A stretch of DNA of 64,000 nucleotides, from the NCBI RefSeq assembly GCF_008087625.1, contig NZ_CP042997.1:6820001-6884000 (forward strand), in the 5' to 3' direction. Position numbers and translations under genes: made by a program. Source of the DNA: Aquisphaera giovannonii. Its GTDB lineage: Bacteria > Planctomycetota > Planctomycetia > Isosphaerales > Isosphaeraceae. The notes under the pieces were generated by a model. It saw nothing but the letters and a program-made list of their open reading frames with translations. It did not search any database and was not told where the DNA came from. Of this stretch, positions 3,257 to 14,066 are shown in pieces. Position 1 is the first letter of the stretch. Each line of letters begins with the position of its first letter.

Positions 3257-4540
3257 TCAGCGCCCCAGCCCAAGCCGCTCCCGGTGGTAGGCCAGCCGGT
3301 CGGTCGGGCTCATCCTCGCGAAGTCGGGACGGCCGTTCGCGACGGCCCTCGACTCGGTCACGAGCGAAGTCGTCCCGTTGCACGAGCAGGCCTCGGCGGA
3401 CGGGCCGCGGCAGGCGCAGGCGTGCCCGTTCGAGTGGGCATGATGCCCGTGCGACTCGACGACCGGCGCCGGGGAGGCGGCCGGGCGGGGCGGGACGACC
3501 ACCGATGCCGAGCCGCCGTAGCTCATCGACTGCTCGGTCACCTTCAGGTCGTCCTCGAGCGGGCGATGGGGCGCGACGCCGAGCTTGCCGAGGACCGCGT
3601 GATACGCCTTCACGGCCTCGACCGGCCCGATGACGCCCTCGACGATCAGGCGCAGGAACTGGACGAACGCGAGCTGGTTCTCAGAGTTGTTGATCTTGCG
3701 GCCGAACAGGGCGACCCTGGCCCCGTACTTCTGCGCATCGTGGAGGAGCTGGAAGGCGTCCCGGGTGGTCCCGGAGGAGCCGCCGAGGATGCCGACGACG
3801 AGGTGCGGGTCGAAGCGGACGAGCTCCTCCATCGCCTTCGGCCCGTGGTAGACGATCTTCAGGAACTGCGGCCTGCCGGCCGGGGCGACGCCCGCGAGCA
3901 TCCTCGTGATCATGTCGTTGAGGTAGTGCGGCAGCACGTCGGGCGCCACGCCCGTGGCGACGTTGGGGTCGAAGACCTCCAGGAAGTAGCGGAACCCCTT
4001 GCGCTCCGCCTCCTCGCGGAAGGCGTGGAACTGCTCCAGGGTCGCGATGTCGCGGTCGAGCTGGTTGTTGAACGTGACGCTGTAGAGCCCGAGGTTCGCG
4101 CCTTGGGTCCGCTCCTCGGGCGTGCAGTCCAGGTGGCCGCACTGCGCGTGGTCGATGTTCGCCGTGCGGAAGGGGCGGGACGCCTCCGTCGCGTAGCCGC
4201 TCCCGCGGGCGAGGTGGATGTCCGTCGTGTCGTTGGCGCGGATGGCCGGCGTGACCGGGGAGTCGTCGAAGAGACGCTCGCGGAACGTCAGGGCGTAGTT
4301 CGAGCTCGTCGACATGAGCATGATGTCGACGAGCCCCTGCCTGGTGATGAGCCGCATCTGCTGGCGGTATTCCTCGAGCGTCTTGAACCGGACCTCGCCG
4401 GCGTGGAGCTCGGGGGACTTGCCCGGGGCGCCGAGGCCGGTGGCCATGTCGGCGTCCTTGGCGTCGGCCAGGATGAACTCGCGGCAGCCCGACGGGTCGG
4501 CGTGGATCGCGGCGAGCTTGCGGTCGAGCGACTTGATCAT
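3257..4540 (-). CDS. BMC-linked DeoC/LacD-like TIM-barrel protein with Cys/His-rich tail
   Basis: A 427-residue protein, last gene of the BMC operon, starting 1 nt after the dehydrogenase stop (translational coupling). I infer a class I aldolase-like (DeoC/LacD) TIM barrel from alternating strand motifs: DIMLMSTS, GLYSVTFNN, RYFLEVFDPN, QFLKIVYHG and RVALFGRKIN. Lys228 in FLKIVYHG sits where the Schiff-base Lys of the family lies. After about residue 345 a low-complexity linker carries many His and Cys (SHGHHAHSNGHACACRG, CSCNG). The protein ends in a short helix-prone segment (DFARMSPTDRLAYHRERLGL) that could target it to the shell. The reaction is not known; it might act on the DHAP or phospho-sugar side of the pathway, or bind metal through its tail. 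Family assignment is moderate; association with the BMC is strong. Confidence 0.6.
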   Translation of the reverse strand: MIKSLDRKLAAIHADPSGCREFILADAKDADMATGLGAPGKSPELHAGEVRFKTLEEYRQQMRLITRQGLVDIMLMSTSSNYALTFRERLFDDSPVTPAIRANDTTDIHLARGSGYATEASRPFRTANIDHAQCGHLDCTPEERTQGANLGLYSVTFNNQLDRDIATLEQFHAFREEAERKGFRYFLEVFDPNVATGVAPDVLPHYLNDMITRMLAGVAPAGRPQFLKIVYHGPKAMEELVRFDPHLVVGILGGSSGTTRDAFQLLHDAQKYGARVALFGRKINNSENQLAFVQFLRLIVEGVIGPVEAVKAYHAVLGKLGVAPHRPLEDDLKVTEQSMSYGGSASVVVPPRPAASPAPVVESHGHHAHSNGHACACRGPSAEACSCNGTTSLVTESRAVANGRPDFARMSPTDRLAYHRERLGLGR

Positions 4541-4541
4541 C

Positions 4542-5663
4542 TCAGCGGCCTCCGGTCACCTTGCCGTTGCCATGGGCGTGCCCGTTCCCGATCCCGGAGA
4601 TCGTCACCCGGGAGCTGCCGAGGCCGCCGTTCCCGCCGCCGCCGGAGCCCATCGTCACGCGGACGGGCTGGCCGGCCGCGGCGGCAGCGACCTTCGCCGC
4701 GGGTGCCGGCGCGGGCTTGCCGGCGGCCTTGGGATTGCCCTTCAGGACGGTGTCGATGGTCTCCCGGAGCACCCGGGAGGAATGCTGGAGGGCGGAGACC
4801 TCCTTGGACCAGAGCTCGATCTCGAACTGGCCGAGGATCCCGGCCCGTCCGACAACGGTCGGCACCGACGTGCAGACGTCCCGCATCCCATAGATCCCGT
4901 TCACGAGGGAGGACACCGGCAGGATCCGTCGCGAGTCCAGGGCGATGGCGTGGACGACCTCGCGGATCGCCATGCCGACGGCGAAGCCGGCGCCGCCCTT
5001 CAACTTGATCACCTCGGCCCCGGAGCCCTTCGTGCGGGTGAAGAGCGCGTCGGCCTGGTTGCTGGTCCAGCCGGGGTACTTCTCGAGCGGCAGCCCGGCG
5101 GCCTGCGCGGCGGACCAGATGGGGACCATGCTGTCGCCGTGCTCGCCCAGGATGAGGGCGGTGACCTGCGTCGGCGGGAGCTTCACGGCGTCCGCGATCA
5201 GGCTGCGGAACCGCGCCGTATCCAGCGCGGTGCCCAGCCCGATGACCTGCGAGGCCGGCAGGCCGAGCTGCCCCAGCGCCAGGTACGTGAGCACGTCCAC
5301 CGGGTTGGAGACGACCAGCACGATGGCGTCCTTCTTGAGCCCGGCCGACTTCACGTTGCCCAGGATGCTCAGGAAGAGCTCGACGTTGCGATTGATCAGG
5401 TCCAGCCGGCTCTCGTCGGGCTTGCGCCGGAGGCCCGCCGTGATCATCACGAGGTCGCTCTCGGGGATGGCCTCGTAGCCGGTGGCCCGGATCCGCTGGT
5501 CCGCCACGAGCGAGGCCCCGTGCAGCAGGTCGAGGGCCTGCCCCTTGCACAGGTCGGCATTCACGTCGATCAGGTCCAGCCCGCTGACGATCCCGCCGCA
5601 CTGGAGCGCGAACGCCGCACACGAGCCGACGAGCCCGCCCCCGCCGATGATGCTCACTTTCAT
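4542..5663 (-). CDS. Lactate/malate dehydrogenase family protein of the microcompartment
   Basis: NAD-dependent 2-hydroxyacid dehydrogenase, 373 residues from ATG 5663 (MKVSIIGGGGLVG), chosen over an upstream in-frame ATG because GGAGAG lies just before it. The Rossmann motif GGGGLVGS, the substrate loop TAGLRRKPDESR, NPVDVLTYLA and the catalytic GEHGDSMVPIWS are all present. Arg occupies the position equivalent to Gln102 of lactate dehydrogenase, which is the malate-type residue, so the physiological substrate is uncertain. In the compartment it would reoxidise or reduce NAD(H) made by the aldehyde dehydrogenase. A Gly/Ala/Pro-rich tail of about 60 residues beyond the normal C-terminus resembles linkers on encapsulated enzymes, but no clear helix follows. 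Confidence 0.88.
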   Translation of the reverse strand: MKVSIIGGGGLVGSCAAFALQCGGIVSGLDLIDVNADLCKGQALDLLHGASLVADQRIRATGYEAIPESDLVMITAGLRRKPDESRLDLINRNVELFLSILGNVKSAGLKKDAIVLVVSNPVDVLTYLALGQLGLPASQVIGLGTALDTARFRSLIADAVKLPPTQVTALILGEHGDSMVPIWSAAQAAGLPLEKYPGWTSNQADALFTRTKGSGAEVIKLKGGAGFAVGMAIREVVHAIALDSRRILPVSSLVNGIYGMRDVCTSVPTVVGRAGILGQFEIELWSKEVSALQHSSRVLRETIDTVLKGNPKAAGKPAPAPAAKVAAAAAGQPVRVTMGSGGGGNGGLGSSRVTISGIGNGHAHGNGKVTGGR

Positions 5664-5733
5664 GACACTCTCCAGTTCCACGGACGCGAGGACGACCACG
5701 GATCGAAGTCTGAGAAAGACAAGACAAATGCAC

Positions 5734-5938: not shown

Positions 5939-6895
5939 TCAGCTTGCGGCGCCGCTCAAGGCGCTCATGACCTTGTCGGTGATGGCCTTGACCAGGGCGT
6001 CCACGTCGGTGCCGGCGGAGTGGCCGTTCGTGGACGGGGCGGCGGCCCTGGCAGCCGGGGCAGGGGCGTGTGAGGGAACCTGGCAGGCGACGCCCGTGGA
6101 GGTGGCCTGGCCGTTCTCCAGGAGCTTGGGGTGGATGAAGACCTTCGGCTCCGGGCCGGGCTGGCCGTAGCCCTCGCGGAAGAGGCTGTTGCCGCAGAGG
6201 TCGCAATTCTCGAGGCCGAGGGTCAGGCGCGGGTCGGGGATGCCGAGGCCGGGCTTGAGCTTGATCAGCTCGGCGGCCTTCGCGTCGTCGTAGTAGTTGA
6301 CCCGGCCGAGCTGCTTGGCCAGGAGGAGGATGCGGCAGTAGGCGTCGATGATCTCGGTCTTGAAGTAGGCGTCCTCGAGGTCCGTCCCGTACGTGACGGT
6401 CCCGTGGTTGGCCAGGAGGATCGTCTCGGTGTCCTTGACGTAGGGGAGCACGGTGTCGGCGAACTTCTGGCCGCCCGGCGTCTCGTACGGGGAGATCGCG
6501 ACCTCGCCGAGGAAGACCTCGATCTCGGGGAGGACGCACTTGGGGATCGGCTCGCGGGCGACGGCGAAGGCCGTGGCGTGGGGCGGGTGGCAGTGCACGA
6601 CCGACTTCACGTCGGCGCGGGACTTCATGATCGTCAGGTGGAGGAGCACCTCGCTCGACCGCTTCTTTTTCCCCGAGATCTGCTTGCCGTCCAGGTCCAC
6701 GATGCACAGGTCGTCGGGCTTCATGTAGCCCTTGGACGTCCGGGTGGGGGTGCAGAGGACGCGGTCCTCGCCCAGGCGGTAGCTGATGTTGCCGTCATTG
6801 GCCGCGGCGAACCCCTTCTGGTAGATCCGCCGGCCGATCTCGCACATCAGTTCGCGCATCTTCCATTCGTTCATCACCGAGCCGTTGCCGACCAT
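5939..6895 (-). CDS. Class II aldolase (fuculose/rhamnulose-1-phosphate aldolase-like) with C-terminal encapsulation peptide
   Basis: Zn-dependent class II aldolase/adducin family enzyme, 318 residues, expected to cleave L-fuculose-1-phosphate and L-rhamnulose-1-phosphate to lactaldehyde and DHAP, the entry step of the planctomycetal BMC pathway. Family motifs are NDGNISYR (phosphate site), HCHPPHATAF (two Zn-binding His), the acidic LPEIEVFLGEV segment and ANHGTVTYG (third His). The catalytic domain ends near residue 255. An Ala/Pro-rich linker follows, then the amphipathic helix DVDALVKAITDKVMSALSG, a typical C-terminal encapsulation peptide. CxxC in ENCDLCGN is an extra feature of unknown role. 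It lies 94 nt after a BMC-P gene on the same strand. Confidence 0.9.
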   Translation of the reverse strand: MVGNGSVMNEWKMRELMCEIGRRIYQKGFAAANDGNISYRLGEDRVLCTPTRTSKGYMKPDDLCIVDLDGKQISGKKKRSSEVLLHLTIMKSRADVKSVVHCHPPHATAFAVAREPIPKCVLPEIEVFLGEVAISPYETPGGQKFADTVLPYVKDTETILLANHGTVTYGTDLEDAYFKTEIIDAYCRILLLAKQLGRVNYYDDAKAAELIKLKPGLGIPDPRLTLGLENCDLCGNSLFREGYGQPGPEPKVFIHPKLLENGQATSTGVACQVPSHAPAPAARAAAPSTNGHSAGTDVDALVKAITDKVMSALSGAAS

Positions 6896-6989: not shown

Positions 6990-7268
6990 CTAGAAGGAGA
7001 GGCGGTCCAGGAGGCACGCGCAGAACGCGTCCACCGGCGTCTTCGTCTTGCCGAACGGGTTCGCGGCCTCGCGACCCTCGCTCAGCCCCACGAGGGCTCC
7101 CGGGCCGGCGCCGAGGTTGTCATAGGCGACGAGCTCCTCGCCGCGTCCGGGCGAGCCCTCCGTCAGGGCCTCGAGCGTCATGGGCCTGAGCACGACGAGC
7201 CGGCCCCCCCGCAGGGAGTGCACCGATCGGCTGAGCGTGACGCGGCCGACGACCTCGGCGATCCTCAT
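6990..7268 (-). CDS. BMC-P shell vertex protein (EutN/CcmL family)
   Basis: A 92-residue pentameric vertex protein (pfam03319 type) that caps the corners of the shell. MRIAEVVGRVTLS at the N-terminus, then VAYDNLGAGPGALVGLSEGREA and a C-terminal VDAFCACLLDRLSF match the EutN/CcmL pattern (xGxVxGxVxxT ... DxxGAGxGxxVLxxxGxxA ... DAxVVGIVD). The ATG at 7268 overlaps the stop of the preceding RpiB-like gene as ATGA, so the two are translationally coupled. The C-terminal two Cys are unusual for the family. Confidence 0.9.
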   Translation of the reverse strand: MRIAEVVGRVTLSRSVHSLRGGRLVVLRPMTLEALTEGSPGRGEELVAYDNLGAGPGALVGLSEGREAANPFGKTKTPVDAFCACLLDRLSF

Positions 7269-8014
7269 CGGCGGTCCTCCTCGTCGAGCCCTTCCGGGGC
7301 CGTCGGCGCCCCGGAGCGGCGGAATGCGGCGGCGAGCTGCCGGATCAGGGCGATGGACTTGCCCGCCGGCTCCACGACCATCAGGTTCATCCCAAGCCCC
7401 TTCACCGCGCGATGGACATCGGACGGCTCGGCGCCGATGGCGGCGCGGATGCCCGGGAGCCGGCAGGCTCGCCAGACGGTCCGCGCCCCCTCGCCCGTGA
7501 TCCAGAGTGCGCCGCGGCCGGCGGTTTCGAGGAGCCATCCGCCGACGTCGTCGAGGGCCGGGCCCAGCTCGAGCCACTCGCCCGGGTCCTCGAGCAGGCC
7601 GCGGCGGAGCGCCTGGAGCATCCCCGACTCCTCGCCGATCGCGAAGGCCCATTCGCCCCGGGCGAGCCGTCGGGCCTCGCCCAGGCCGCCCAGCCGGATC
7701 TCGATCCCGCGCCGCTTGAGCAGGTCGCGGGCGAGCGGCGTGACCACGGTCCCCGTCGCGATCCGGACCGTCCGCGTGCCGGCCGGCATCAGCTCGACCT
7801 GGCGGACGCCCAGCAGCCTGTCGGTGAAGGGCTGGCTGCCGTCCGCCGGCGGCCGCCTCCGCCCCGCACCGCGAATGTCCGCCAGAACGGACCGGACCGC
7901 GTCGTCCACGAGCCGGATCGGATCGGGCCGATCGGGCGCGATCTCCGTGGCGAGGGCGCGTGCGAACGCCGGCTCGCTCATCCGGAAAACGGTCCTCGAC
8001 GCGACCTGGCTCAT
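7265..8014 (-). CDS. BMC-associated degenerate RpiB/LacA-like protein with possible encapsulation helix
   Basis: A 249-residue protein of unknown function. Start ATG 8014 (MSQVASRT) follows AGGAG by 6 nt. The C-terminal part (about 170-235, ALWITGEG, PGIRAAIGAEP, NLMVVEPAGKSIALI) resembles the RpiB/LacA sugar-phosphate isomerase fold, where the family has CGTGIG, GIRAA and HNDAN; here the catalytic Cys/Ser loop and the His are replaced, so isomerase activity is unlikely. Near residue 30, DPIRLVDDAVRSVLADIRG is an amphipathic helix followed by a Pro/Arg/Gly linker, similar to the N-terminal encapsulation peptides of the PduL and aldehyde dehydrogenase here. VVTPLARDLLKRRGIEIRL is a second conserved-looking block. 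Role could be structural, regulatory or sugar-phosphate binding. Confidence 0.6.
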   Translation of the reverse strand: MSQVASRTVFRMSEPAFARALATEIAPDRPDPIRLVDDAVRSVLADIRGAGRRRPPADGSQPFTDRLLGVRQVELMPAGTRTVRIATGTVVTPLARDLLKRRGIEIRLGGLGEARRLARGEWAFAIGEESGMLQALRRGLLEDPGEWLELGPALDDVGGWLLETAGRGALWITGEGARTVWRACRLPGIRAAIGAEPSDVHRAVKGLGMNLMVVEPAGKSIALIRQLAAAFRRSGAPTAPEGLDEEDRR

Positions 8015-8043
8015 GGATCTCCTTCCGACCTCCCAGTCCGGCC

Positions 8044-8310
8044 TCAACGGCGTCCCACATCGTCAGGCAGGCCCAGGACGCTCCATCGGCCCGGGGTGTC
8101 CCGCCCGAGCAGCGACTGGAGCAGGTCCCCGTCGCTGGTCAGTATCACCCGGTCCCCCCTCCGCGCCCCGAGCCGGTCGAAGGCCAGCACGGGCTCGCCG
8201 TCGGGCCGGCCGTCGCTCGTCTGGAGCTGGACCACGAGGAGCTTCTCCGACTCGAAGGTGGGATGCTTGACCGTGGAAGTCGCCGTCCCCAGGACCGTGC
8301 CGAGCTGCAT
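8044..8310 (-). CDS. BMC-P shell vertex protein (EutN/CcmL family)
   Basis: An 88-residue pentameric vertex protein, the second of three in the operon. It begins MQLGTVLGTATSTVKHP, followed by KLLVVQLQTSDG, AFDRLGARRGDRVILTSDG and a C-terminal WSVLGLPDDV, the order of EutN/CcmL proteins. A GAGAGGAGA ribosome binding site precedes ATG 8310. It lies 24 nt after the aldehyde dehydrogenase and 29 nt before the RpiB-like gene. Confidence 0.92.
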   Translation of the reverse strand: MQLGTVLGTATSTVKHPTFESEKLLVVQLQTSDGRPDGEPVLAFDRLGARRGDRVILTSDGDLLQSLLGRDTPGRWSVLGLPDDVGRR

Positions 8311-8334: not shown

Positions 8335-9762
8335 TCAGAGGAACCGCATGCCGCCGGCGATCGCCGTCCGGCGCTGCCGGGTGAACGTCAGCGGGGTGGT
8401 CACTCCCTCGCCCGTCGGCCCGGCGATCGAGAACGACGGATACCCCTCGCCGCCGGCTCCCAGGCCGGCGATGCTCGGCCCATTGACGACGAAGATGGTG
8501 CAGTTCATGACCTTGCCCATCTTGGACATGACGGTCGTGTCGCGCGAGTGGAGCATCGCGGTGTGGCCGAAGCCGTGCTCGCTCTCGTAGGCCAGGGCGA
8601 TGGCCTTGTCGACGTTCGACACGCGGACGAACGGCACGAACGGCATCATCTGCTCCTCCTGGACGAACGGGTGGTCGAACCCCGTCTCTCCGAAGAGCAG
8701 GTCCACCCCGTCCGGGATCTTGACGCCGGCCGCCTCGGCGAGGACCGCGGGATCCTTGCCGACGAAGTCCTTGTTCACGTGCGGCTTGCCGTCGCTGCCG
8801 ACCGGGATCGCCGCCTTCGTCAGGGCGTCGATCTGGTTCGCCGTGAGGCGGAAGCCGCCGTTGCGGGTCATGGCCTCGGTGAGCGAGTCGAAGACCTCGC
8901 CCACCGCGAAGACCTGCTTCTCGCCGATGCAGAGGAGGTTGTTGTCGAACGAGCCGCCCACCACGATCGACTTCGCCGCGTTGTCCAGGCAGGCCGTCGC
9001 GTCCACCACGACCGGGGGATTGCCCGGGCCCGCGACGATCGCCCGGCGCTTGCTCGCGAGCGCCGCGCGGGCCACGGCCGGGCCGCCCGTGACGACGAGC
9101 AGGCTGACGCCCTTGTGCTCGAAGAGCTGGGCGGCCGTCTTGAGCGTCGGCGGGTCGATGATCGTGAGCAGGTTCTCCAGGCCGATCGCCTCGCGGATGG
9201 CCTTGTTGAACCGCCGGACGCCCTCGGCCGCGACGTTGCCGCCGGAGGGGTGGGCGTTGAAGACGACCGTGTTCCCGGCCGCGAGCATGCTGATCGCGTT
9301 GGCGGCCAGCGTGGGCAGGCTGTGCGTGACCGGCGTGATCGCCCCGATGACGCCGAAGGGGGCGTAGTCGGTGAGGGTCAGCCCGTCGTCGCCGGTCGCG
9401 ACGTCCGTAGGGAGGAACTCGGGGCCGGGGATGAGCGGGATCGTGCCGCGCAGCTTGGCGATCTTGTGGTCGAGGCGGCCGATCTTGGTCTCGTCCAGCT
9501 CCGCCCGGCCGAGCTCCTCGGCCTGCTCGACGCAGATCTTGCGGATGACCTCGACGGCCTTCTTGCGGTCGCCCAGCCCGCGTTTCTGGAACAGCTCGAA
9601 GGCGGCCTCGGCCGCCTCGACGGCCCCGTCGACGGTCGGGAAGACACCGAGGTTCCCGGAGGGGCGGGCCGGCGCCTTGCCGTTGGTGGGCAAGGCCCCG
9701 TTCCCCATCTGGGTCAGGACCTCGTGGATGACGGTTCGGATCAGGTCTTCGGTCATTTGCAT
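8335..9762 (-). CDS. CoA-acylating aldehyde dehydrogenase (PduP/EutE-like) with N-terminal encapsulation peptide
   Basis: Oxidises the toxic aldehyde (lactaldehyde expected) to its acyl-CoA inside the compartment with NAD+ and CoA. About 475 residues. The catalytic Cys lies in SFDNNLLCIGEK; FGVIGAITPVTHSLPT and NTVVFNAHPSG are family motifs of the PduP/EutE class rather than hydrolytic dehydrogenases. The first ~18 residues (TEDLIRTVIHEVLTQMG) form an amphipathic helix followed by a Gly/Pro/Ala linker, a classical encapsulation peptide. The start is uncertain: ATG 9762, ATG 9756 and an in-frame GTG 9771 are all possible and none has a strong ribosome binding site; all keep the helix. Confidence 0.92.
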   Translation of the reverse strand: MQMTEDLIRTVIHEVLTQMGNGALPTNGKAPARPSGNLGVFPTVDGAVEAAEAAFELFQKRGLGDRKKAVEVIRKICVEQAEELGRAELDETKIGRLDHKIAKLRGTIPLIPGPEFLPTDVATGDDGLTLTDYAPFGVIGAITPVTHSLPTLAANAISMLAAGNTVVFNAHPSGGNVAAEGVRRFNKAIREAIGLENLLTIIDPPTLKTAAQLFEHKGVSLLVVTGGPAVARAALASKRRAIVAGPGNPPVVVDATACLDNAAKSIVVGGSFDNNLLCIGEKQVFAVGEVFDSLTEAMTRNGGFRLTANQIDALTKAAIPVGSDGKPHVNKDFVGKDPAVLAEAAGVKIPDGVDLLFGETGFDHPFVQEEQMMPFVPFVRVSNVDKAIALAYESEHGFGHTAMLHSRDTTVMSKMGKVMNCTIFVVNGPSIAGLGAGGEGYPSFSIAGPTGEGVTTPLTFTRQRRTAIAGGMRFL

Positions 9763-9864
9763 GGCTGGCACCGTCGCGAAGGGGGCACGGTTGGGTTCAC
9801 GGGTATAACGGGGCGGCCGCGGGCGACCGGTCGGGGCGGGGGCGAGGGACGGCGGCGCGGAGGA

Positions 9865-10179
9865 TCATCCGCCGCGGGCGGAGAAGACGACCTTGCCGGC
9901 GACGTCCACCGTGTCGACCAGGCCGATCACGACGGCGTCGATGGGCAGTTTCTCTGTCTCCGGCGTGAGCCGGGCGCTGGAGCCCTGGCAGACGAGCACC
10001 ATCTCGTCGACGCCGGCCCCCAGCGAATCGACCACGACGAACGAGCGGCCGGTGGGGACGAGCTTGCCCGAGCCCTTCTCGTCGACCCGGTAGGGCTCGA
10101 CCATCAGGAGCTTGTGCCCCGTCATCGAGGCCACCTTCTGGGTGGCCACCACGCTGCCGGTCACTCGGGCCAGGAACAT
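9865..10179 (-). CDS. BMC-P shell vertex protein (EutN/CcmL family)
   Basis: A 104-residue pentameric vertex protein and the most typical of the three: MFLARVTGSVVATQKV, HKLLMVEPY, FVVVDSLGAGVDEMVLVCQGSSAR and AVVIGLVDTVDV match EutN/CcmL signatures closely. ATG 10179 follows an AAGGA-type site. It lies between the acetate-kinase-like gene (59 nt) and the aldehyde dehydrogenase (about 100 nt). Confidence 0.95.
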   Translation of the reverse strand: MFLARVTGSVVATQKVASMTGHKLLMVEPYRVDEKGSGKLVPTGRSFVVVDSLGAGVDEMVLVCQGSSARLTPETEKLPIDAVVIGLVDTVDVAGKVVFSARGG

Positions 10180-10238: not shown

Positions 10239-11444
10239 TCAGTCCATCGACGCCTTGCCCGAGTCGAGCAGCGTCCGGCTCTGGCGGGCGACGACCAGCT
10301 CCTCGTTCGTCGGGACGGTCCAGACCTGGACCCTGGAGCCAGCCGAGGACACCTTGCGCTCGGCCTCGCCGGAGGCGTTGAGCGTCGGGTCGAGCTCGAT
10401 GCCGAACCAGGCCAGGTCGCGGCAGACCTCCTCGCGGATCCGCGACGAGTTCTCGCCGATCCCGCCGGTGAAGGCGATGACGTCCAGGCCGCCGAGGGCG
10501 ACCATGAACGCCCCGAGGTAGTGGCGAATCGAGTCCACGAAGACGTCGATGGCCAGCTTCGCGCAGGGGTCGCCCTTGTCGGCGGCCGCCTCGATGTCCC
10601 GCAGGTCCCGGGCCTCGCAGAGGCCCTGGAGCCCGGACTGGTTGGCCAGGATGTCGAGGATTTCCTCCAGCGTCTTGCCCGTCTCGCGGAGCAGGGGGGG
10701 CAGGGCGAAGACGTCGAACTCGCCGACGCGGTTGTTGTGCGGCAGGCCGGTCTGGGGGCTCATCCCGAGGCTGCAGGCGACCGACCGGCCGGAGTCGATG
10801 GCGGCGAGCGAGGAGCTGCCGCCGAGGTGGCAGGAGATGACCTTCAGGTCCTTCCTGCCCAGGAGCTCCGGCACCCGCCACGAGATGTAGCGGTGGCTGG
10901 CCCCGTGGAAGCCCCACTTCCGGATGCCCAGCTCGGTGGCCCAGGCGTCCGGGATGGCGTAGCGCTGGCGGGCCTCCGGGATGGTCCGGTGGAAGCCGGT
11001 CTCGAAGGCCGCGACTAGGGGGAGCTTCGGGAAGCGGCCCCGGAGCATCCGCATGGCCTTCGTATACGGGGGGTTGTGGGCGGGGGCCACGTCCGCGAAG
11101 GCCTCCATCGCCGCCAGCACCTCGTCGTCCACGAGGTGGACGCCGGTCAGGTTGCGGGCGTGCACGGCCTTGAAGCCGATGGCCGAGACCTCGGAGGGGT
11201 CCGCGAGGACGCCGATCTCCGGGTCGGTCAGCTGCTCCAGGCAGAGCTGGACGGCGTCGCCGTGGTCCTCGACGTGGCGGGCCGATTCCCGCTCGCCCCG
11301 CGTCGTCTTGACGACGACGCGGGCGGTGGGGGAGCCGATCCGCTCGATGCCGCCCCGGGCCAGGACCGGCTCGGACGGGTCGCTCACGTCGAAGAGGCGG
11401 TACTTGAAGCTCGTGGAGCCGAGGTTGGCGACGAGGATCTTCAC
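10239..11444 (-). CDS. ackA: Acetate/propionate-kinase family acyl-phosphate kinase
   Basis: A 401-residue kinase of the acetokinase family. It would convert the acyl phosphate made by PduL (lactyl-phosphate expected) into the acid plus ATP, the energy-yielding end of the pathway. The frame uses GTG 11444 ([18 protein letters not shown]) with GGAG upstream and starts 2 nt after a BMC-H stop. Motifs: [12 protein letters not shown] (first phosphate loop), [53 protein letters not shown] and [13 protein letters not shown]. No encapsulation helix is visible at either end, consistent with a cytosolic position. Real substrate not shown by sequence. Confidence 0.92.
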
Positions 11445-11446
11445 CG

Positions 11447-11725
11447 TCAGGCTCCTGCGAACTGGCGGACGACGACGGAATCCGGCCGGGGGATGACGTG
11501 CGCGGCGCGGAGCTCGCCGATCTTCGACGCGGCCTCGGCGCCGGCCTCGACGGCGGCGCGGACGCTGCTGACGTCGCCCCGGACCATCACGCTGACGACC
11601 CCGCCGTCCAGCTTGATGATGGAGGAGGCGACCTCCACGGTCGCCGCCTTGAGCATGGCATCGATGGCGCTGATCAGGCCCACCAGGCCGAGGGTCTCGA
11701 TCAGGCCCAGGGCGTTCCCGTTCAT
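11447..11725 (-). CDS. BMC-H hexameric shell protein 1
   Basis: A 92-residue single-domain hexamer-forming shell protein (pfam00936). ALGLIETLGLVGLISAIDAMLKAA and the C-terminal AAHVIPRPD are the family signatures; VMVRGDVSSVRAAVEAGAEAAS is the second half. It carries a 43-nt stretch identical to the neighbouring BMC-H 2. Good ribosome binding site (GGGGAG) before ATG 11725. Facets of the shell would be built from this and its two paralogues. Confidence 0.95.
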   Translation of the reverse strand: MNGNALGLIETLGLVGLISAIDAMLKAATVEVASSIIKLDGGVVSVMVRGDVSSVRAAVEAGAEAASKIGELRAAHVIPRPDSVVVRQFAGA

Positions 11726-11778
11726 CGTGTAGGCTCCCCTTCTTGGTCTCGGTCTCGCTGGAATTGGTCGACCGGGGG

Positions 11779-12093
11779 TCAGCCCAGGAACGCGCCCAGG
11801 ACGCTCTCATCCGGCCGCGGGATGACGTGCGCGCTGACCAGCTCGCCGATCCGCGACGCGGCCTCGGCGCCGGCCTCGACGGCGGCGCGGACGCTGCCCA
11901 CGTCGCCGCGGACGAGGGTCGTGACGTAGGCGCCGCCCACCTGGACGCGGCCGGCGAGCTGCACGTTGGCCGCCTTGAGCATCGCGTCGGTGGCCTCGAT
12001 CATGCTGACCAGGCCCTTGGTCTCGATCAGGCCGACGGCCTCGCCGTTGCCGCCGAACTTGGACGGGGACGCGGATCGCTGGAGAGTCGTCAT
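11779..12093 (-). CDS. BMC-H hexameric shell protein 2
   Basis: A 104-residue BMC-H protein with an extra N-terminal segment (about 17 residues, MTTLQRSASPSKFGGNG) before EAVGLIETKGLVSMIEATDAMLKAA. YVTTLVRGDVGSVRAAVEAGAEAAS and SAHVIPRPDESVL complete the fold. The N-terminal extension and the VGGAYV segment differ from BMC-H 1, so pore or surface properties may differ. It lies 4 nt after BMC-H 3. Confidence 0.95.
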   Translation of the reverse strand: MTTLQRSASPSKFGGNGEAVGLIETKGLVSMIEATDAMLKAANVQLAGRVQVGGAYVTTLVRGDVGSVRAAVEAGAEAASRIGELVSAHVIPRPDESVLGAFLG

Positions 12094-12531: not shown

Positions 12532-13236
12532 TCACGCCTTGGTCAGGATCACGTTCGACGCGTGCGCCAGGTCGCACGCGTTCGCCTCGTCGGTGTCGAT
12601 GTGCACCTCGAGCTTCCAGTCCGGGTGGGTCCGGACGAGCAGGCCCTCCAGCGTGGAGGGGCACGGGCTCTCGACCCTCATGTTCATGCGGTCGAGGTGC
12701 TTGACCCCGTAGTGCTCGGCGTCCCTGGGCCCCATGTGGACGTGCCGCTCGGCGCGGATGACGCCCTTGTCGAGCACGAGCGAACCCTTCGGGCCGATGA
12801 GGATGCACCCGGGCGTCCCCTCGATGTCGCCGGAGAGCCGCACGGGGACGTCGATGCCGAGGCTGATGGAGTCGGTGAAGGCCAGCTCCACCTGGCTGAA
12901 CTTGCGGCAGGGGCCGAGGATCCGCACCCCCGGGATCATCCGCTGCCGCGTGCCGACGACGGCGACCGTCTCGTTGGCGGCGAAGTCCGTGTCCTGGTAG
13001 AGCCGCTTCATGGCCGTGAGCTGGTAGCCCCGGCCGAAGAGCACGTCCACGGCCTCCTGCGTCAGGTGGCAGTGGCGGGCGGAGATGTTCACCAGGAGCT
13101 TCGGCCTGTAGGCCGCCTCGCGGGCGTGGCCGTTGGCCGGGGCGTGGCCGTTGGCCGACGCCTGCCCGTTCATCTGCCTCAGGATGATGGATCGGACCAG
13201 GCTCTCGACCTGGTCGCGGCTCACGGCCGTGCTCAT
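12532..13236 (-). CDS. pduL: PduL-type phosphate acyltransferase with N-terminal encapsulation peptide
   Basis: Transfers the acyl group from CoA to phosphate, recycling CoA within the shell. 234 residues. The two-Zn active site is visible as SARHCHLT and RHVHMGP (HxH pairs) with HIDTDEAN near the C-terminus. Residues 7-23 ([17 protein letters not shown]) form an amphipathic helix followed by a repeated Asn-Gly-His-Ala linker ([13 protein letters not shown]), a typical encapsulation peptide. Its ATG overlaps the stop of the DeoR regulator gene as ATGA, so regulator and enzyme are translationally coupled. About 100 nt separate it from the BMC-H genes. Confidence 0.94.
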
Positions 13237-14066
13237 GCCTCGGTCCTCTCGTTCTTGGTGCGATGCGGGCCGGTCAGCGCCGACCCGTTCGCGGCCGGTT
13301 GGCCGGCCATCGCGGCGACCTCGACCCTCACCCCGGCCCCTTCGACGGCCTCCCGGAACGGCGAGGGGACGGCCCGGTCGGTCACGAGGCGATGGATCTC
13401 GTCGAGCCCGCAGAGCCGCGACAGGGTCATGCGGCCGAACTTGGTATTGTCGGCGACGATCACGACCTCCTGGCCGCAGGCCATCATCTGCCGCTCGGTC
13501 TCTACAAGGAGCAGGTTGGAGTTGTAGACCCCGTCCGCCACGATCCCCCCCGCCCCCATGACCACCTTCCGCACGCGGATGCCGGTCATCGTGGCGATCG
13601 CCAGCGGCCCGAGCGCCACGCCCGTCCGCGGGTAGATGTAGCCGCCGATGAGGATCAGGTCGGTCTGCTGGCTGGACGCCAGGAGCTGCGCGATGGGCAG
13701 GCTATTGGTCACCACCTGGACCCGCCGGCCCAGGAGCGCCCGGGCGACCTCCAGCGTCGTCGTCCCCCCGTCGAGCAGGACGCTCTCCTCGTCCTCGATG
13801 AGGGCGGCCGTCGCCCGGCCGATCGCCTGCTTCTCCGCCACGGCGGTGGAGCTGCGGTCCTCCAGGGCCGGCATCGCGCGGACCTCGCCCGCGTAGACGG
13901 CCCCGCCGTGCGTCCGCTTCACCGACCCGGCCAGGTCCAGAGCCTCCAGGTCCCGCCGGACCGTGCTCTCGGAGACGCGCAGCGTGCGGACCAGCTCCTC
14001 CAGGGTGGCGGAGCCCTGGCGGCTGACCAGGTCCAGCAGGCGGCGACGCCGCGTCTCGACGAGCAT
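13233..14066 (-). CDS. DeoR-family transcriptional regulator of the BMC operon
   Basis: A 277-residue repressor of the DeoR/GlpR type and first gene of the operon. The N-terminal winged helix is clear ([43 protein letters not shown]). The C-terminal DeoRC sensor domain has [42 protein letters not shown] and [12 protein letters not shown]. Family members bind phosphorylated sugars, so a fuculose/rhamnulose phosphate or DHAP-type effector is a fair guess. GGAG precedes ATG 14066. Position at the head of the operon implies autoregulation. The C-terminal ~25 residues are a Gly/Asn/His-containing extension. Confidence 0.92.

Follow-up and report, generated by a model that had tools for sequence, protein, structure and literature searches.

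Why should a microcompartment operon that already encodes an aldolase end in a gene for a second, aldolase-like protein? The question is raised by an open frame of 427 amino acids, with an ATG start and its own stop, on the minus strand of Aquisphaera giovannonii DNA (3257-4540 of the window, by which we mean the whole stretch of 64,000 nucleotides analysed).

The operon and the distribution of its last gene

The frame starts 1 nt past the stop of a lactate/malate dehydrogenase (LDH)-like gene and closes an operon that runs from a DeoR regulator and PduL through two BMC-H (PF00936) and three EutN/CcmL (PF03319) shell proteins, acetate kinase (AckA), an aldehyde dehydrogenase (AldDH) and an uncharacterised 260-aa protein to a class II aldolase and the LDH-like gene (Table 1). 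The gene set of a PVM locus (BMC-H, EutN/CcmL, class II aldolase, AldDH, PduL, AckA and LDH) is complete in the window. The initial annotation was right to call the gene the last of its operon, here a complete PVM-type microcompartment operon, and to state that a class II aldolase is already encoded there. An X-Pro peptidase-like gene (PF02129) lies downstream and is not counted in the operon.

Table 1. Coordinates of the gene under study, its parts and the other genes of the operon in the window
Feature	Position	Strand	Basis
TIM-barrel core, residues 1-341, predicted; unnamed class I aldolase-like family	3518..4540	-	AlphaFold2 model and solved-fold matches
Lys228 codon, predicted Schiff-base lysine	3857..3859	-	Invariance and alignment to PF01791/LsrF-type Lys
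Disordered linker (predicted), residues 342-405	3326..3517	-	pLDDT ~37 over most of 342-400; length and sequence vary in relatives
Double CxC motif (C375/C377, C385/C387) in linker	3380..3418	-	Sequence
Conserved C-terminal motif and helix, residues 405-427, candidate targeting peptide	3260..3328	-	Motif in relatives; helix 412-422 predicted
Lactate/malate dehydrogenase-like gene, directly upstream	4542..5699	-	PF00056/PF02866
Class II aldolase, known signature enzyme of PVM loci	5939..6895	-	PF00596, E 9.7e-47
EutN/CcmL shell protein	6990..7265	-	PF03319
EutN/CcmL shell protein	8044..8310	-	PF03319
Microcompartment-type aldehyde dehydrogenase	8335..9771	-	PF00171; NF011927 above cut-off
EutN/CcmL shell protein	9865..10179	-	PF03319
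Acetate/propionate kinase, inside ORF 10239-11810	10239..11450	-	PF00871
BMC-H shell protein	11447..11725	-	PF00936
BMC-H shell protein	11779..12093	-	PF00936
PduL-type phosphotransacylase	12532..13236	-	PF06130
DeoR-type regulator	13233..14066	-	PF00455/PF08220

Two other proteins of the operon carry features of their own. The 260-aa protein (7265-8047, minus strand), encoded between two shell genes, has no Pfam match and a weak eut_hyp match; counterparts at 25-43% identity are found in loci L037, L038, L061 and L104, and the one in genome G283 (L127 5843-6706) has an N-terminal helix resembling an encapsulation peptide. The LDH-like protein and its near kin have a long Gly/Ser-rich C-terminal tail (4542-4745, minus strand, in the window) that contains RVT(I/V)SG and no Cys.

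Among 148 genomes of the window's class, the gene (a match at E <= 1e-50) occurs in 93, and PF03319, taken as the mark of a shell-gene genome, in 119; all 93 carriers are among the 119. The other 26 of these 119 shell-gene genomes have no match at E <= 1e-50, and the gene is therefore not essential to the compartment. Nor is it present in every PVM genome, as a core component of the PVM would be: PVM loci lacking it occur in G283 (L127), G121 (L128) and G366 (L137), the last with no match in 19 kb around the PVM locus and with LDH as the last recognised PVM gene. A sample of 294 genomes from the phylum, in which strong matches are those with E below 1e-100, yielded 26 genomes with a match, 20 of them strong; the other six, with best E values of 4e-8 to 5e-4, contain DeoC/LacD-family proteins (L021, the second G132 stretch, was left out of this check). 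PF03319 is present in 19 of the 20 strong-match genomes versus 94 of 294 overall (p 1.5e-9, uncorrected for kinship), and the single exception, G129, carries a copy without a tail. A strong match is lacking in 75 of the 94 PF03319 genomes of this sample. A possible role as the rhamnulose-specific aldolase was weighed by co-occurrence. Within the shell-gene genomes of the class, RhaA scores over its cut-off in 31 of 93 carriers versus 3 of 26 non-carriers (p 0.03), leaving 62 carriers without RhaA, and the fucose-isomerase C-domain occurs in 43 of 93 versus 2 of 26 (p 0.0002); kinship confounds both comparisons.

A scan of genome contigs found at least 522 stretches that encode a relative, among at least 595 stretches with the pattern, and the best 80 were kept. 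A PVM gene lies within 3 kb in 56 of these best 80 of at least 522 relatives, with LDH as the closest such gene in 43, class II aldolase in 10 and a shell gene in 3; the remaining 24 have no PVM gene within 3 kb, some of them only because of contig ends. PF03319 was found in all nine genomes checked, seven of which have the gene away from PVM genes; they are MAGs labelled Acidobacteria, KSB1, Sumerlaeota-type, Omnitrophota and Planctomycetota. At three related loci of Phycisphaerae/Phycisphaerales MAGs (L069 10001, L100 10001 and L101 267), a shell gene immediately precedes the gene, and neither class II aldolase nor LDH is matched in the locus. A class II aldolase is found elsewhere in the genome of L100 and none in the MAG of L069, which is possibly incomplete; L101 was covered at the locus only.

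Fold, family and predicted catalytic residues

The initial annotation had suggested a TIM barrel related to DeoC and LacD, with fold prediction and fold search set beforehand as a possible refutation. AlphaFold2, run with 16 and later with 47 sequences, predicts a TIM barrel both times, and the predicted barrel is that of a class I aldolase, in line with the suggestion. Most core blocks of the second model score pLDDT 90-98, residues 31-50 are at 48-49 and residues 101-120 at 77-82, while a disordered region spanning residues 342-400 (pLDDT ~37 over most of it) is followed by a helix at 412-422. Compared with solved folds by VIA-align, where rows within 1 Z are taken as tied, the second model best matches ADH synthase (2qji; Z 22.6, rmsd 3.1, 254 residues), LsrF (4p2v; Z 21.7, rmsd 3.1, 251 residues), archaeal FBA (1ojx; Z 21.3, rmsd 2.9, 238 residues) and sulfohexulose-1-phosphate aldolase (8tnf; Z 20.9, rmsd 3.6, 257 residues). 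LacD and YihT entries reach Z 20-21, placing LacD within ~2 Z units of the best fold. Foldseek, queried with the predicted model, finds LsrF at E 8.9e-10 with a probability of 1.00 in the DhnA/LsrF group. A true DeoC was considered and rejected: deoxyribose-phosphate aldolase is absent among the fold matches listed, in which LsrF and ADH synthase are highest, and kinship with it is still possible.

Family models touch the protein faintly. Pfam returns zero families at E up to 1 for the 427-aa protein (queried without its first Met), and the only NCBIfam models touched at E up to 1 are those of ADH synthase and LsrF-thiolase, with 15-19 bits against cut-offs of 241-299 over residues 226-314. 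Scores stay below the curated cut-offs of ADH_synth, PRK07226, PRK08227 and PF01791 (best 19 bits versus 241), and LacD and YihT models are absent from the Pfam and NCBIfam matches of the window protein. With phmmer, a weak match to LsrF (E 0.88) pairs Lys228 with the LsrF lysine; against solved chains, family profile A1 recovers only AI-designed barrels, and profile A3 the same barrels plus LsrF at E 0.011. The profile comparison with DeoC/LacD-type proteins was positive: hhalign pairs 20 family sequences with five PF01791/LsrF-type proteins at a probability of 96.8 and a pairwise E of 2.4e-10, with the GG and GR motifs in register. These five are weak matches of the phylum-sample search, and all pass PF01791 while four pass the LsrF-type model PRK08227; comparison proteins L022-L027 pass the PF01791 cut-off, unlike the window protein.

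With ADH synthase (M. jannaschii MJ0400) and E. coli LsrF, DhnA-type class I aldolases, and with the DeoC/LacD family PF01791, the protein family described here shares the predicted barrel, an aligned lysine column, glycine phosphate loops and a weak but consistent match over approximately residues 226-314. It differs from them in its ~15% identity, a longer core (~340 residues), its own invariant stretches, other gene neighbours and scores below every named-model cut-off. LacD tagatose-1,6-bisphosphate aldolase, YihT and sulfohexulose-1-phosphate aldolase are also class I barrels acting on ketose phosphates, at Z 20-21 and 12-16% identity. Fold models and alignments support assigning the product of 3257-4540 to an unnamed family of class I aldolase-like proteins, with the DhnA/LsrF group as the nearest.

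Residue 228 is a lysine on a short predicted strand (227-229). Together with D26, K28, G253, G254, G280 and R281, it is identical in all 110 aligned rows, which comprise 98 unique proteins from 100 loci (window included) and 12 plasmid proteins, with tail-less members included. Hhalign places K228 on the invariant lysine column of the five PF01791/LsrF-type proteins, and by our own count of residue correspondence it matches Lys203 of LsrF. According to the accessible text of PMC2728841, Lys203 is the Schiff-base position in LsrF, and Gly226, 227 and 253 bind phosphate; in the window protein, the predicted phosphate-loop glycines, close to where strands 7 and 8 end, are G253, G254 and G280. Alignment and invariance support Lys228 as the predicted Schiff-base lysine, as the initial annotation had proposed, with its position in the pocket taken from the alignment.

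The C-terminal linker and helix

The tail had been described as a His/Cys-rich segment with a helix-prone end, arranged like a linker plus targeting peptide. Both elements exist: the string SHGHHAHSNGHACACRG is present, then a second CxC (C375-A-C377, C385-S-C387), and the end of the protein is the predicted helix. The suggested layout of a linker followed by a helix stood in the predicted model. Across a tail set of 98 unique proteins from 100 loci (weak matches L021-L027 excluded), a C-terminal motif is found in 91, by a pattern written after the tails were inspected; of the seven without it, two are tail-less, three are divergent and two are cut by a contig end. Most organelle-linked copies combine a disordered linker with a conserved C-terminal helix, whose sequence is M(T/S)xxERLAYHRxRL. 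A degenerate codon pattern for RLAYHR has a single match in the genome, at this gene, and its reversed control has two.

Encapsulation peptides usually consist of a terminal helix after a disordered linker, and their definition includes amphipathicity (PMC12339742, in its available part). The predicted model of the window protein has such a short terminal helix behind such a linker. The amphipathic part of the definition was not found, because the hydrophobic moment of the terminal helix is no higher than that of its own shuffles (mean z 0.16 over 91 helices); the moment of the window helix is exceeded by 82% of its shuffles, in a weak test that gives 5.5% for the class II aldolase helix and 17% for the AldDH helix. 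This lack of clear amphipathicity makes a classical encapsulation peptide less likely.

Cysteines in the linker follow a pattern of their own. Tail Cys counts in the 98 proteins are 0 in 72, 1 in 2, 2 in 1, 3 in 2, 4 in 18, 5 in 2 and 6 in 1. All 23 tails with at least three Cys hold at least two CxC, six of them overlapping as CxCxC, versus a mean of 0.15 and a maximum of 3 of 23 in shuffled tails; the Cys-rich linker is recurrent and not due to chance. No equally long His run was seen in the other Cys-bearing tails printed, in which the double CxC recurs. On a 110-row tree, the tailed rows require at least six changes in CxC state. The C-termini of LDH have Cys in none of the 50 placed, many of them being just a few residues long. 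The C-terminal stretches of class II aldolase have CxC in 5 of 52 placed (L074, L082, L095, L099 and L103), each with a Cys-free linker in its class I partner; the idea that CxC in one aldolase linker excludes it in the other was rejected, being not significant (Fisher p 0.145).

Seven planctomycete copies have no tail (L018, L020 and L131-L135), and no PVM gene lies near any of them in the 4-14 kb read. Shell genes are nonetheless present in at least six genomes with tail-less copies (L018 and L131-L135), in G415 ~25 kb away on the same contig, and a strict pairing of tail and compartment was rejected on this ground. PVM neighbourhood, at 0 of 7 tail-less planctomycete copies versus 56 of the 80 best-scoring loci, all with a tail of at least 34 residues, differs between the two groups (Fisher p 4.5e-4, uncorrected for kinship). 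A quick tree of 116 rows requires at least three changes of tail state, as one gain and two losses would give; an earlier 110-row tree required two. One tailed copy, in G383 (L136 5667-6869), has a galactokinase-family gene 88 bp upstream. A predicted cargo status for the protein is supported by its co-occurrence with shell genes, its place in the operon and its tail.

Gene neighbours, proposed function and setting

Forty-seven plasmid records contain relatives at 40-53% identity, and 40 of these records belong to Rhizobiaceae genera (Rhizobium, Shinella, Agrobacterium, Sinorhizobium and Pararhizobium). The match ends at query residues 335-343 in 46 of the 47, the remaining one being a partial match; this one excepted, the annotated plasmid relatives are named hypothetical protein. 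Thirteen of the 47 records, picked for diversity, were opened, and 12 loci are counted, one record being unannotated. A PfkB, FGGY, DhaK or ADP-dependent sugar kinase lies in the stretch in all 12 annotated loci and a sugar ABC transporter in 10. Four loci have a glycerol-3-phosphate-dehydrogenase-type (GlpD) gene and a fifth has an FAD oxidoreductase in the matching place (L114, L115, L117, L118 and L121), and at the Vibrio plasmid locus an aldehyde dehydrogenase lies directly downstream of the tail-less relative. Among planctomycetes, the tail-less copy of G129 overlaps a ketohexokinase-family gene (PF25270, E 1.8e-42), that of G352 has an aldehyde dehydrogenase gene behind it, and that of G331 has a divergent PfkB gene at a distance of ~600 bp. 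The other tail-less planctomycete copies looked at show no kinase/dehydrogenase pattern, with L133 near a GH97 gene and L135 near an AP_endonuc_2 gene. As a separate observation, the recurrent set of FGGY kinase, GlpD-like/FAD oxidoreductase, sugar ABC transporter and 'hypothetical' aldolase in L114, L117, L118 and L121, on Rhizobiaceae and Martelella plasmids, looks like an uncharacterised polyol pathway.

The common theme of these contexts is a kinase, a ketose-phosphate aldolase and aldehyde oxidation, and a DHAP-forming ketose-phosphate aldolase is proposed because of it. LacD and YihT work with PfkB kinases. On balance, we lean towards a class I aldolase of an unnamed family that would cleave a ketose-phosphate, most likely a ketose-1-phosphate, through a Schiff base to DHAP and an aldehyde, and that would serve as an optional second aldolase among the PVM cargo; substrate and encapsulation are what we infer. 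For the PVM, lactaldehyde would be this aldehyde. The enzyme may be brought into or onto the compartment by its disordered linker and conserved C-terminal helix, and could there widen the sugars or stereoisomers usable beyond those of the class II aldolase. Because the aldolase-like gene ends the fucose/rhamnose PVM operon in many planctomycetes, the organelle probably carries a second sugar-phosphate-cleaving enzyme beside its known class II aldolase. The initial annotation had left three candidate functions side by side: the second aldolase is now favoured, an isomerase found no support, and metal binding is possible for the linker only.

The barrel may instead belong to the DhnA/LsrF group and carry out another reaction, as an FBP aldolase condensing compartment DHAP with glyceraldehyde-3-phosphate, an LsrF-like thiolase or an ADH-synthase-like transaldolase. 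The nearest solved folds and the sole NCBIfam models touched at E up to 1 are of this group, tail-less kin touch the same models, and in the KSB1 locus L089 the gene immediately upstream is of the class II FBA type. Yet in the class sample the gene is confined to shell-gene genomes, and tail-less kin, with kinases or aldehyde dehydrogenases as neighbours, look more like enzymes of ketose-phosphate catabolism than of central glycolysis; we consider another reaction unlikely, though worth keeping in mind. An isomerase or epimerase acting on sugar phosphates would also suit a TIM barrel near sugar genes, with the xylose-isomerase-like AP_endonuc_2 neighbour in L135 as a further hint, but the top solved folds are Schiff-base aldolases and the Lys, GG and GR motifs are conserved, which makes this reading highly improbable.

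Other alternatives concern the tail rather than the barrel. The protein might be a cytosolic helper whose tail, instead of being a cargo signal, docks it to a partner, for instance the class II aldolase or the outside of the shell. A helix that is conserved yet non-amphipathic by hydrophobic moment, in the weak shuffling test above, would fit such docking; the usual encapsulation-peptide layout of a helix after a disordered linker (PMC12339742, in its available part) and the location of 56 of the 80 best-scoring loci within 3 kb of PVM genes speak against it, and we regard it as rather doubtful. It is also conceivable that function resides in the double-CxC linker, which would cross-link cargo as a metal, Fe-S or disulfide node, with the barrel secondary. 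The bimodal Cys counts (0 in 72 and 4 in 18 of 98) and the CxC pairs of every Cys-rich tail agree with this, but 72 of 98 tails are Cys-free, the predicted catalytic residues do not vary across the 110 rows, whether tailed or tail-less, and the seeming exchange of CxC motifs with the linker of the class II aldolase does not reach significance; such a node appears improbable as the main function. Bolder than the favoured aldolase reading, and to our minds speculative, is an undescribed class I aldolase family recruited to the organelle through a sequence-specific C-terminal docking motif, in which the four-Cys (CxC)2 site of the linker, perhaps sometimes replaced by a CxC in the linker of the partner aldolase, would bind metal or reversibly cross-link lumen cargo.

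One known system for comparison is the PVM locus of Planctomyces limnophilus, reportedly described by Erbilgin in 2014. As far as the available text of PMC4207490 goes, this locus has the same shell gene types, class II aldolase, AldDH, PduL, AckA, LDH-like and DeoR regulator genes, with class II aldolase as the signature enzyme of PVM loci, and the window operon differs in adding the class I aldolase-like gene at its end. In the accessible portions of the literature consulted (including PMC4207490, PMC8217296, PMC8857213, PMC4784909 and PMC11346464), the passages on PVM name a class II aldolase and no class I aldolase. No description of the 3257-4540 protein was recognised in the accessible literature, whose supplements may mention it.

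A class I aldolase is likewise present in the DeoC-containing candidate microcompartment loci, which we take to be those later named SPU. The candidate loci of Atribacteria, Gemmatimonadetes and Marinimicrobia hold DeoC, 52-57% identical to known DeoC, with no other aldolase named in the available part of PMC4207490; the window differs from these in having an unnamed family beside a class II aldolase.

If the favoured aldolase reading is true, the accepted pathway of the organelle would be incomplete for most carriers, since 93 of the 119 shell-gene genomes of the class would have a further aldolase of unrelated mechanism. A single assay would be informative for planctomycetes and rhizobia alike, because tail-less members of the family are found in rhizobial sugar operons. 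The tailed and tail-less relatives would together form a natural experiment on how enzymes become organelle cargo.
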